Origin: Rhodospirillales bacterium
GTDB lineage: Bacteria > Pseudomonadota > Alphaproteobacteria > TMED109
DNA length: 64,000 nucleotides
Assembly (NCBI GenBank): GCA_028824295.1
Contig: JAPPED010000013.1
Span: forward strand, 1-64,000
Reading direction: 5' to 3'
Shown: positions 4,874-42,177 of the stretch, piece after piece
Layout of the letters: the number at the start of each line of letters is the position of its first letter
How positions within the stretch are numbered: the first letter of the stretch is position 1
Made by a program: the position numbers and the translations under genes
The notes under the pieces: generated by a model
What the model saw: only the letters and a program-made list of their open reading frames with translations
Databases searched by the model: none
Told to the model about the DNA's origin: nothing

Positions 4874-6051
4874 GGCCAGACGAGGAGGTCCGTGCGGTTG
4901 CGCTCAATGAAGTCCCAGTCGTACTCCACGCCGAGGCCGGGGCCCTTGGGAACCGGCACACAGCCATCCGCCGGCAGGTCCTCCTGCTGGTCCGAGTACC
5001 CGGCGTCGTAGACGGGCGGCACGCAGTTCGCCATTCCCGGGCCGATCAGCGCCATCTCGTAGAAATGCGTGTTGCGTGCCGTGGCGGATACCGCCCGGTG
5101 GGCCGGCCCGCAGGCGTGCACTTGGACGTCAAGCCCGAAGGCCTCGGCGACGTGCACGATCTTCATTGCCCCGGTAATGCCGAGATCGTACTCGGGGTCC
5201 ACGTGGATCATGTCGCACCCGCCCCCGATCAGGAACTCGGCCTTCTCCTCGACGCTCCGGATGTGCTCGCTCACCAGCACCGGCGTCTGCAGGCGCTCCC
5301 GCAGCCTGCGATGGCCAGTGATCGAGACCCCGCTGTCGCGGTAGGGATCCTCGTACCAGAAGCACCCGACCTCATCGCACACGCGTCCCACCGCCAGGGC
5401 ATCCATCCACGTGCGGAGTTCGCACGCCGCGTCCAGCATGAGCGGCATGTCATCGCCGATCCGTGCCCGTACCTGCCTGAGGTTCTCTGATTCACGCGCG
5501 ACGTCGCCGTCGTTCCAGCCGTGAATCTTGAAGCCGTGGAAGCCGCGTTCCTGACAGGCGGCGGCGTAGTCGGCAAACGCGGCCGGCGTGTCCAGACCGC
5601 CGGGCGTCGACTGCCCGTGATAGGTGCTCGCATACGTCGGCAGCCGCTCGCGAAACGCACCCAGCATCGCTGCCACCGACATGCCGTGCTGCCGCCCGGC
5701 CAGATCCCAGAGGGCAATGTCGAGCGGGCCCTGTCCCATGTGGTCATAAGCGCGCAACTCGCGCTTCATATCGTCGTGCAGGGCTTCCCGGTGGGCGGGA
5801 TCGCGCCCGATCAGCATCGGCGCCAGCATCTCCGCCTGCCCCAGCGCAGCGCGGGTGCCCACCCAGTGCGTCACGTACGATCCGACGGCACCGTCATCAG
5901 TGCAGATGCGGACGGCAAAGCGGGTTGGCGTCAGCGTGGCGCCCTGCTCAAAGACGACGTTGCCGACACCGGGGCCGCGGGCCTTCCCGACGCCCAGGTT
6001 GGGAAGCGAGAAGTTAAAGACGTGGACTTCAACACGATCGATGGTGCTCAT
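4870..6051 (-). CDS. Mandelate racemase/muconate lactonizing enzyme family protein
   Basis: Enolase-superfamily enzyme of 393 residues with an N-terminal capping domain and a TIM barrel. Candidate Mg2+ ligands are Asp207 (MLDAAC), Glu234 (WYEDPY) and Glu262 (VSEHI). Candidate acid/base residues are Lys175 (GFKIHGW), His312 (VHACGPAH) and Glu332 (FYEM). The Lys-x-Lys of classical mandelate racemase-type members is here Lys-x-His (175-177). Such proteins remove a proton next to a carboxylate, often as sugar-acid dehydratases; the substrate cannot be told from sequence. It leads the two-gene unit with the di-heme protein and is divergent from the phytanoyl-CoA dioxygenase gene. Confidence 0.9.
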   Translation of the reverse strand: MSTIDRVEVHVFNFSLPNLGVGKARGPGVGNVVFEQGATLTPTRFAVRICTDDGAVGSYVTHWVGTRAALGQAEMLAPMLIGRDPAHREALHDDMKRELRAYDHMGQGPLDIALWDLAGRQHGMSVAAMLGAFRERLPTYASTYHGQSTPGGLDTPAAFADYAAACQERGFHGFKIHGWNDGDVARESENLRQVRARIGDDMPLMLDAACELRTWMDALAVGRVCDEVGCFWYEDPYRDSGVSITGHRRLRERLQTPVLVSEHIRSVEEKAEFLIGGGCDMIHVDPEYDLGITGAMKIVHVAEAFGLDVQVHACGPAHRAVSATARNTHFYEMALIGPGMANCVPPVYDAGYSDQQEDLPADGCVPVPKGPGLGVEYDWDFIERNRTDLLVWP

Positions 6052-39775: not shown

Positions 39776-40435
39776 GTGACGGCCTCACGGGCGACGCGGC
39801 CCATGCCGCTCAAGGACGTGGCCGAGGCGTTTGAACGGTTCGCCCGCGCCAATCCGTCGCCGCGCAGCGATCTCGAGTACACCAACACGTACACCCTGCT
39901 GGTGGCAGTGGTGCTCTCGGCGCAGGCGACCGACGCCGGCGTCAACCGGGCCACCGGGCCGCTCTTCCGGTCGGTCGACAATCCCGCCGCAATGGTTGCG
40001 CTTGGCGAGGAACGGCTGCGCGAGGCCATCCGGACCATCGGGCTTTACCGCAACAAGGCGAAGAACGTCATCGCGTTGTCCAGGCGCCTGATCGATGAGT
40101 TCGGCAGCGAAGTGCCGGCTGACCGCGAACAGCTCGAAAGCCTGCCTGGAGTCGGCCGCAAGACCGCGAATGTCGTCCTCAACGTGGCCTTCGGAGAGCC
40201 CACGATGGCCGTCGACACGCACATCTTCCGGGTCTCCAACCGAACGGGGCTGGCGCCCGGGCGAGATCCACTGGCGGTGGAAAAAGCACTGCTCAGGCGA
40301 ATCCCGGAGGCGTACCAGCTGCACGCCCACCACTGGCTGATCCTGCATGGACGCTACACGTGCGTTGCCAGGAAGCCGAAATGCGCCCAGTGCCCGATAC
40401 CGGACCTCTGCCGGTTCCCCGAGCGCACCGCCTGA
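39776..40435 (+). CDS. nth: Endonuclease III (DNA glycosylase/AP lyase)
   Basis: Base-excision repair of oxidised pyrimidines. The 219-residue protein has the helix-hairpin-helix LPGVGRKTANVVLN with catalytic Lys129, the catalytic Asp147 in AVDTHIFRVSNR, and the four cluster cysteines Cys196, 203, 206 and 212 (TCVARKPKCAQCPIPDLC), so both activities and the 4Fe-4S cluster are intact. It starts with GTG at 39776. The LexA-like gene follows 235 bases downstream on the same strand. Confidence 0.97.
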   Translation: MTASRATRPMPLKDVAEAFERFARANPSPRSDLEYTNTYTLLVAVVLSAQATDAGVNRATGPLFRSVDNPAAMVALGEERLREAIRTIGLYRNKAKNVIALSRRLIDEFGSEVPADREQLESLPGVGRKTANVVLNVAFGEPTMAVDTHIFRVSNRTGLAPGRDPLAVEKALLRRIPEAYQLHAHHWLILHGRYTCVARKPKCAQCPIPDLCRFPERTA

Positions 40436-40604: not shown

Positions 40605-40629
40605 GGGGCTCGGCAAAATGGCGAGCCCC
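40605..40629 (+). promoter_or_regulatory. 8-base inverted repeat upstream of the LexA-like gene
   Basis: GGGGCTCG (40605-40612) and CGAGCCCC (40622-40629) flank the AT-rich centre GCAAAATGG. The 25-base symmetric element ends 41 bases before the LexA-like start, so it could be its operator, or alternatively the nth terminator. It does not match the GTTC-N7-GTTC boxes known for alphaproteobacterial LexA. Confidence 0.45.
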
Positions 40630-40670
40630 GGTATGGTAGAAACGGCCCGGACACACGCGCGACAAGCCCG

Positions 40671-41285
40671 ATGCCTGATCTCACCCGCCGCGAAGCGAAG
40701 CTCCTGGAAGCATTCGAACAGCATGTCGAGCGGACGGGTGTCGTTCCCACGCGTACAGAACTCCGAATCGCCATGGGCTGGGAGTCCCTGGGCACGGTCC
40801 AATATTTCCTGAACCGCCTGACCAGCAAGGGAGCGATCGAGATCGTTCACGGCGAATCCCGGGGGGTTGGCCTGGCGCGTCCGGTAACCGGGACTGACGA
40901 CATTCCGATTATCGGCCAGATGGTCTCCGACGCCGACCCGCTCGCCGAGGAGAACATCGAGGACACCGTCTCCGCATCGACCGCGGCCGCCCTGTTCCGA
41001 ACGCGGACGGACTTCTTACTGCGGGTCCAGGACGATTCCATGGCGGGCGCAGGGATTCGTGCCGGCGACCTGGTCGCCGCCCAAAAGGCCTCGGACGCCC
41101 GGCATGGCAGCATGGTCGTGGCCTCCGTGGCCGGGAAAGCCTCCGTCCGCCGACTGCTCCGAGACAATGGGCACGCGGCACTGGTGTCCGATAACCCTGA
41201 CTTTCAGCGTATTTCGTTTGGCGACGGCAAAATCGAAATCAAGGGAATCGTCGTCGGGTCCGTGCGACACCGGGCCTCGACCTGA
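40671..41285 (+). CDS. LexA-family transcriptional regulator, apparently not self-cleaving
   Basis: A 204-residue protein with the LexA plan: an N-terminal winged helix (LTRREAKLLEAFEQHVE, PTRTELRIAMGWESLGTVQY) and a C-terminal S24-type domain (LLRVQDDSMAGAGIRAGDLV). Ser123 matches the catalytic Ser of LexA, but Arg160 (ASVRRLL) stands at the general-base Lys position (E. coli Lys156, TVKRL). The scissile Ala-Gly is replaced by Ser86-Asp87 (IPIIGQMVSDADPLAEENIE). Self-cleavage on RecA activation is therefore unlikely. ATG 40671 begins the LexA similarity; the frame is open upstream but unrelated. Whether another, cleavable LexA exists lies outside the window. Confidence 0.88.
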   Translation: MPDLTRREAKLLEAFEQHVERTGVVPTRTELRIAMGWESLGTVQYFLNRLTSKGAIEIVHGESRGVGLARPVTGTDDIPIIGQMVSDADPLAEENIEDTVSASTAAALFRTRTDFLLRVQDDSMAGAGIRAGDLVAAQKASDARHGSMVVASVAGKASVRRLLRDNGHAALVSDNPDFQRISFGDGKIEIKGIVVGSVRHRAST

Positions 41286-41478: not shown

Positions 41479-42177
41479 TCAGGCGTCGGCACCGCCTGGA
41501 TGAAACTCCAGCAGGGTCAGGCGCGCCGGCGGGAAACGGTCCGCGTAGCAAGCGCCGGTATCGATCCAAGTCACCTTCCCGCGCGTCCTCGGCTGCCCGA
41601 TCACGGTGTGGCCGCAATACACATGCCGGATCCGCTCGCCGACCTCCGGCACCGGCGCGTCCTCCCGGACATGGGTGCGCGACCACAGCACTTCCGCCAT
41701 CGCGTCGCGATCACCCCGGTTCAGCGCATCGAGAAGGCCGTCCCAGGTGCATCCACGCGGCAGGTCAGCATGCACGATGCCGACTGGCCCACGGGCAGTC
41801 TCGACCTCCATCGCGAAAGGGAGGGCGAGGCAGGCCTCGACAAAGGCATCCCGCCGCGCGGCCGGGACGTCCACCCACCATGTCCCGCCGTTTACGGCCC
41901 AGAGCGACCAACGCGTCGGATCCTCGTGGCAGTCCAACAGCAGTTGCTCGTGGTTCCCACGGCAGGCATGAAACCAGGGGAGGTTCCACCACTCCAGCGC
42001 GTCCGCGGATGCCGGACCACGGTCCACGATGTCGCCCACCGAGAACAGCCGGTCGCTGGCGACGTCGAACTGAACGTCGCCGAGCTTTGCTTCCAGCTCC
42101 GGAAACGTCCCGTGAATGTCGCCCACGACGAAGTCGCGGCCCGCCTCGTTCCGGGCGAACTTTTGGACCGGGGTCAC
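41479..42177 (-). CDS. PPP-family metallophosphoesterase (serine/threonine phosphatase-like)
   Basis: A 232-residue calcineurin-like phosphoesterase. The metal motifs are complete: GDIHG (Asp20, His22), VGDIVDRGP, RGNHEQLLL, VHADLP and YCGHTVIGQP near the C-terminus. It resembles the small bacterial protein phosphatases PrpA and PrpB. It starts with GTG at 42177. It is flanked by the LexA-like gene (convergent) and an EI24-like membrane protein; its target is unknown. Confidence 0.9.
   Translation of the reverse strand: MTPVQKFARNEAGRDFVVGDIHGTFPELEAKLGDVQFDVASDRLFSVGDIVDRGPASADALEWWNLPWFHACRGNHEQLLLDCHEDPTRWSLWAVNGGTWWVDVPAARRDAFVEACLALPFAMEVETARGPVGIVHADLPRGCTWDGLLDALNRGDRDAMAEVLWSRTHVREDAPVPEVGERIRHVYCGHTVIGQPRTRGKVTWIDTGACYADRFPPARLTLLEFHPGGADA

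Follow-up and report, generated by a model that had tools for sequence, protein, structure and literature searches.

A predicted non-cleavable LexA paralogue with a natural lexA3-type change accompanies canonical LexA in an alphaproteobacterial genus

Introduction

Loss of LexA self-cleavage has been described in laboratory mutants and in nature. The E. coli lexA3(Ind-) allele encodes LexA G85D, which binds RecA* and is not cleaved (PMC6363387), and the K156A form of E. coli LexA likewise cannot be cleaved (PMC3834820). The G85D protein and P. aeruginosa LexA G91D (PDB ID 8b0v) resemble the protein described here, which we call LexA2, in that they have an aspartate in place of the scissile glycine, adopt the S24 fold and keep the catalytic serine. 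They are, however, SOS repressors mutated in the laboratory, whereas LexA2 occurs naturally as a fixed paralogue, has in addition lost the catalytic lysine and carries a different recognition helix.

LexA from Synechocystis sp. PCC 6803 lacks the Ala-Gly pair and the serine and acts as a repressor outside the SOS response (PMC7567884). It is thus, like LexA2, a natural protein without Ala-Gly and without part of the catalytic dyad, but Synechocystis LexA has lost the serine and LexA2 the lysine, and repression by LexA2 is predicted from sequence. Moreover, the Synechocystis protein was studied as the LexA of its organism, whereas LexA2 accompanies a canonical LexA. Leptospira interrogans also combines a canonical LexA with a second one gained by lateral transfer, but the latter keeps the Ser-Lys dyad and a Cys-Gly site, is depleted after UV and is apparently cleavable (PMC3789691). 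Streptococcus mutans IrvR is a LexA-like regulator uncoupled from RecA, as LexA2 would be, but it is of the phage-repressor type and retains constitutive self-cleavage (PMC7101444). A non-cleavable LexA is already known from Synechocystis; what is unusual here is a fixed lexA3-type paralogue beside a canonical LexA, of which we found no report in the literature searched, a search whose coverage excluded most subscription journals.

Results

We analysed a stretch of 64,000 nucleotides (the window) and confirmed the lexA2 reading frame, with an ATG start at 40671 and the stop assigned in an earlier, sequence-only reading of this DNA.

40671..41285, + strand: lexA2, LexA-family repressor of 204 amino acids, predicted non-cleavable (profiles, alignment, orthologues)
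40671..40865, + strand: N-terminal winged-helix DNA-binding domain, residues 1-65, PF01726 (Pfam)
40854..40901, + strand: interdomain hinge, residues 62-77, weakly constrained and of low model confidence

The protein matches LexA_DNA_bind (PF01726, E 5e-13) and Peptidase_S24 (PF00717, E 1e-21) in this order, and scores 138.9 bits against the NCBIfam profile TIGR00498 lexA (curated cut-off 110.95), which assigns it to the LexA family by profile. Together with an alignment to E. coli LexA, these matches confirm the proposed correspondence to LexA through the winged helix and the S24 domain. An AlphaFold2 model (mean pLDDT 78, below 50 in the hinge) shows LexA-like secondary structure, and its top Foldseek matches are LexA structures, the nearest PDB entries including LexA G85D and P. 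aeruginosa LexA G91D. The C-terminal domain superimposes on solved LexA domains with a TM score of ∼0.8; the whole-chain score is only ∼0.55 because the model does not fix the mutual placement of the two domains. Profiles and model support the view that LexA2 retains the LexA fold.

Comparison with E. coli LexA revealed that Ala84-Gly85 align with Ser86 (TCC)-Asp87 (GAC), Ser119 with Ser123 (TCC) and Lys156 with Arg160 (CGC), and the residue calls of the sequence-only reading are exact.

40926..40931, + strand: Ser86-Asp87 codons (TCC GAC) replacing the scissile Ala-Gly pair, with Asp87 fixed across the genus
41037..41039, + strand: Ser123 codon, equivalent of the catalytic Ser119, kept (alignment, orthologues)
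41148..41150, + strand: Arg160 codon (CGC) replacing the catalytic Lys156, Arg invariant in the genus

Five further genomes of the genus have full-length orthologues (69-92% identity), and in a seventh genome the contig end falls inside lexA2, giving six complete copies including that of the window; where records are named, they are metagenome assemblies of alphaproteobacteria, including one labelled Rhodospirillales. Self-cleaving SOS LexA proteins have a scissile Ala-Gly (or Cys-Gly), a catalytic serine and a catalytic lysine. The six LexA2 copies instead have Ser-Asp (window only), Pro-Asp (three copies) or Ala-Asp (two) at the scissile position; all six retain Ser123, and all six carry Arg160 in place of the lysine. 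Fixation across the clade, which the earlier reading had suggested checking, thus holds for Asp87 and Arg160 and not for Ser86. One subclade encodes Arg160 by CGC, the other by AGG. On the simplest reading of these sequences, the ancestral LexA2 would have had Ala-Asp, with the Gly-to-Asp change coming first. Sequencing error at these positions is ruled out by the recurrence of Asp87, Ser123 and Arg160 in five independent congeneric assemblies. Chance loss is ruled out as well, as 56 of the 59 other LexA-like proteins in the same alignment keep Ala-Gly, Ser and Lys; of the remaining three, one has an incomplete cleavage-site region and the other two are further paralogues in the same genus.

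E. coli LexA K156R keeps some residual cleavage under special conditions, and Arg160 alone is therefore a weaker argument than Asp87, which is the same change as in the laboratory lexA3(Ind-) allele. Given Asp87 and Arg160, and a proline at P1 in three species, self-cleavage of LexA2 is very unlikely by analogy with the E. coli mutants.

The source genome (3.02 Mb, 35 contigs, 98% complete) encodes two PF01726 proteins and one copy of recA. The search for a second LexA with Ala-Gly and Lys, proposed in the earlier reading, located this protein on contig C1 (C1:163467), with the motifs IAAG, GDSM and ATLKRF intact; the gene preceding it resembles moeA, as read from the translation. Resident LexA and LexA2 have the two-domain architecture in common but share only ∼27% identity, and the resident protein is of alphaproteobacterial type, keeps Ala-Gly, Ser and Lys, and has another recognition helix. 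A canonical LexA with all three catalytic features (IAAG, GDSM, TLK) is found in 7/7 genomes of the genus, so the SOS response is not rewired through loss of a cleavable LexA. Its promoter block is nearly invariant in the genus (TTGACTTCTTGTwGCGAACAAAGTAGAACATAG). The suggestion of a rewired SOS response in this lineage finds no support as far as it implies that a cleavable LexA is missing; by sequence the SOS switch appears formally intact, and the anomaly concerns a paralogue. The promoter block lies within ∼80 bases upstream of canonical lexA (L160, L154-L159) and contains GAAC-N6-GAAC. The usual alphaproteobacterial LexA box is GTTC-N7-GTTC, and this family may have a box with a one-base shift from that pattern.

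E. coli LexA contacts DNA bases through Ser39, Asn41, Ala42, Glu44 and Glu45 (PMC3091678). The corresponding region of LexA2 and two elements upstream of the gene are as follows.

40785..40820, + strand: recognition helix region, residues 39-50, SLGTVQYFLNRL, with four of five base-contacting positions changed relative to E. coli SPNAAEEHLKAL
40632..40641, + strand: TATGGTAGAA, promoter-like extended -10 upstream of lexA2, inferred from the congener alignment
40605..40629, no strand: inverted repeat GGGGCTCG-N9-CGAGCCCC, candidate operator, of which only the nearest relative has a nearly complete copy

LexA2 has Ser39, Gly41, Thr42, Gln44 and Tyr45 at the contact positions, all invariant in the genus, and its helix is also unlike that of the resident LexA (SKSGIHRHL). 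A recognition helix that is changed but fixed leads us to expect an operator distinct from that of the resident protein. Upstream alignments and genome-wide motif counts in the source genome and its congeners revealed no operator or target of LexA2. The promoter-like TRTGGTAGRA is the only block upstream of lexA2 recognizable in all congeners (one of them with one further change); a consensus scan returned no sigma-70 site there, and the promoter block of resident lexA is not seen upstream of lexA2 in the congener alignment. The inverted repeat, earlier put forward as a possible operator, does exist but is complete in the window only; one arm base is changed in the nearest relative, and the arms fade in the other congeners. 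GGCTCG-N9-CGAGCC, with one mismatch allowed, occurs 42 times in the source genome versus 44 for the reversed control, with no clear enrichment over this control in any congener, and we rejected the repeat as the lexA2 operator. A similar repeat common to three congeners (G003, G004, G005) lies inside a reading frame resembling a sensor kinase and was taken as coding sequence. GTTC-N7-GTTC boxes number 128 versus 57 in the control, unsorted and too numerous for use.

We find that lexA2 is under purifying selection, which is strongest in the DNA-binding domain. Between two subclades dN/dS is 0.10-0.15 for residues 1-61, and in the S24 domain it is ∼0.25. The 16-residue hinge, with an identity of 12-25%, has a value above 1, an estimate based on few, highly diverged codons. 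Over the whole gene, dN/dS between species is 0.21-0.41, compared with 0.02-0.12 for nth, 0.11-0.20 for the adjacent phosphatase gene and 0.04-0.11 for a nearby SDR gene. lexA2 evolves faster than its neighbors (69% identity where nth has 92%), and a partial relaxation of selection is possible given this difference.

The lexA2 gene lies between two neighbors.

39776..40435, + strand: nth, endonuclease III, neighbor of cysZ in sister genera without lexA2
41479..42177, - strand: PPP-type phosphatase gene, PrpA/PrpB-like, convergent with lexA2 (profile matches, synteny)

The repair glycosylase gene noted upstream in the sequence-only reading is indeed nth, but it is a separate gene 235 bp away. 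Gene order around lexA2 is identical in all congeners. The phosphatase gene accompanies lexA2 in 5/5 congeners with a complete locus, and a search of further family members at E 1e-15 returned no such gene. In two sister genera, cysZ and an amidase gene come immediately after nth, with neither lexA2 nor the phosphatase gene in between; in the genus studied here these two genes fill one interval between nth and cysZ. Gain of this interval in the genus is the simpler reading, but the sister genomes compared are small, and a loss there is conceivable. A functional link between lexA2 and nth is weakened, as nth adjoins cysZ in the sister genera and lexA2 separates them only here. Two congeneric assemblies break at the lexA2 start, one (G004, L044) near 5850-5960 at a run of Ns with duplicated flanking sequence and the other (G003, end of L049) at a contig end; both breaks are probably assembly artefacts. 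The SDR gene upstream of nth in the latter assembly (L049, 4350-5042) matches as two pieces, which suggests an indel, a frameshift or a gap.

Among the genomes searched, LexA2 is confined to this genus of uncultured alphaproteobacteria. It falls outside the alphaproteobacterial LexA clade with support of 100/100 in two trees, calculated with and without the longest branches; the program issued a long-branch warning, and the trees are read without a fixed root. It is safe to state that LexA2 does not appear to be a duplicate of the alphaproteobacterial LexA proteins sampled, and on the two trees we rejected a recent duplication of the resident lexA as its source. The best match outside the genus, at 128 bits, is to E. 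coli-type LexA proteins from other classes of the phylum, compared with a maximum of 76 bits within the class, and LexA2 has probably been acquired laterally. Plasmid sequences gave matches of only ∼35% identity, and we rejected a plasmid origin; a pattern scan of low sensitivity returned no relative in viral contigs that would indicate a phage origin.

Other LexA-like proteins occur in the genus. One (L040, G006:C29, 3713-4384, + strand) lacks the serine and the cleavage site but keeps the lysine, and is encoded near a TniQ gene and a transposase gene with Mu-type C-terminal and rve domains; by sequence it is a degenerate LexA-type regulator in a Tn7-like element. A third paralogue (L039, G004:C20, 3946-4560, - strand), ∼40% identical to LexA2, has Pro-Asp at the cleavage site, no catalytic serine and a glycine for the lysine. 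It is encoded close to genes for a helicase and a BRCT-domain protein, and groups with LexA2 (100/98) on a very long branch.

Discussion

LexA2 is probably an acquired, separately wired and non-cleavable repressor that binds DNA at an operator of its own and controls its own regulon. The lost cleavage residues and the constrained DNA-binding domain make a constitutive or otherwise triggered repressor derived from LexA, as first proposed from the sequence alone, the best-supported reading. Self-cleavage would have been lost before the genus diversified. Because the scissile glycine is an aspartate and the catalytic lysine an arginine, RecA-stimulated self-cleavage would be unable to inactivate the protein. 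Judged from its recognition helix, the LexA2 dimer most likely binds an operator unlike that of resident LexA. It would hold a regulon of its own, probably including lexA2 itself and independent of the SOS switch, and this gene set most likely lies beyond the usual DNA-damage induction. Control of LexA2, if any, would act on its synthesis or through another protease, a ligand or a modification rather than by self-cleavage. The invariance of Ser123 counts against this explanation, as a C-terminal domain with only a structural role would not obviously need this residue.

An acquired, catalytically dead LexA might instead add a second layer to the resident system and tune the DNA-damage response as a RecA decoy or by phosphatase-linked phosphorylation in place of self-cleavage, which we consider unlikely. 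As a decoy, LexA2 would fill the groove of the RecA filament, slow cleavage of the resident LexA and so damp the SOS response, with DNA binding being secondary. In vivo, LexA(G85D) seems to compete with a different ligand of RecA* (PMC6363387), and the S24 fold and Ser123 retained by LexA2 are consistent with such a role. However, constraint on LexA2 is strongest in its DNA-binding domain, and a decoy would not need a newly fixed recognition helix; we thus regard this role as quite improbable.

We are equally doubtful that a ligand or Ser/Thr phosphorylation controls LexA2 activity, with the PrpA-like phosphatase forming part of the switch. The co-distribution of the two genes points in this direction, and the activity of the non-cleavable Synechocystis LexA has been proposed to be tuned by phosphorylation of Ser173 (PMC7567884). 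Yet lexA2 and the phosphatase gene are convergent and have separate promoters, co-inheritance at a single site is weak evidence for a shared pathway, and we found no ligand domain beyond S24 and no kinase link. That lexA2 is a decaying paralogue under relaxed selection with no present role is highly improbable: its elevated dN/dS relative to nth and the divergent hinge would fit decay, but reading frame, length and synteny are kept in six species at dS values of up to 0.8, the N-terminal domain is well constrained, and Arg160 is maintained across a change of codon family.

Our favored reading, a separately wired repressor, has consequences for annotation and for the LexA family. TIGR00498 would label LexA2 as an SOS repressor and so mislead SOS reconstructions of this lineage. 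The natural, genus-wide occurrence of the lexA3 (G85D) change together with loss of the lysine, beside a working LexA, separates the LexA repressor from the LexA protease in evolution.
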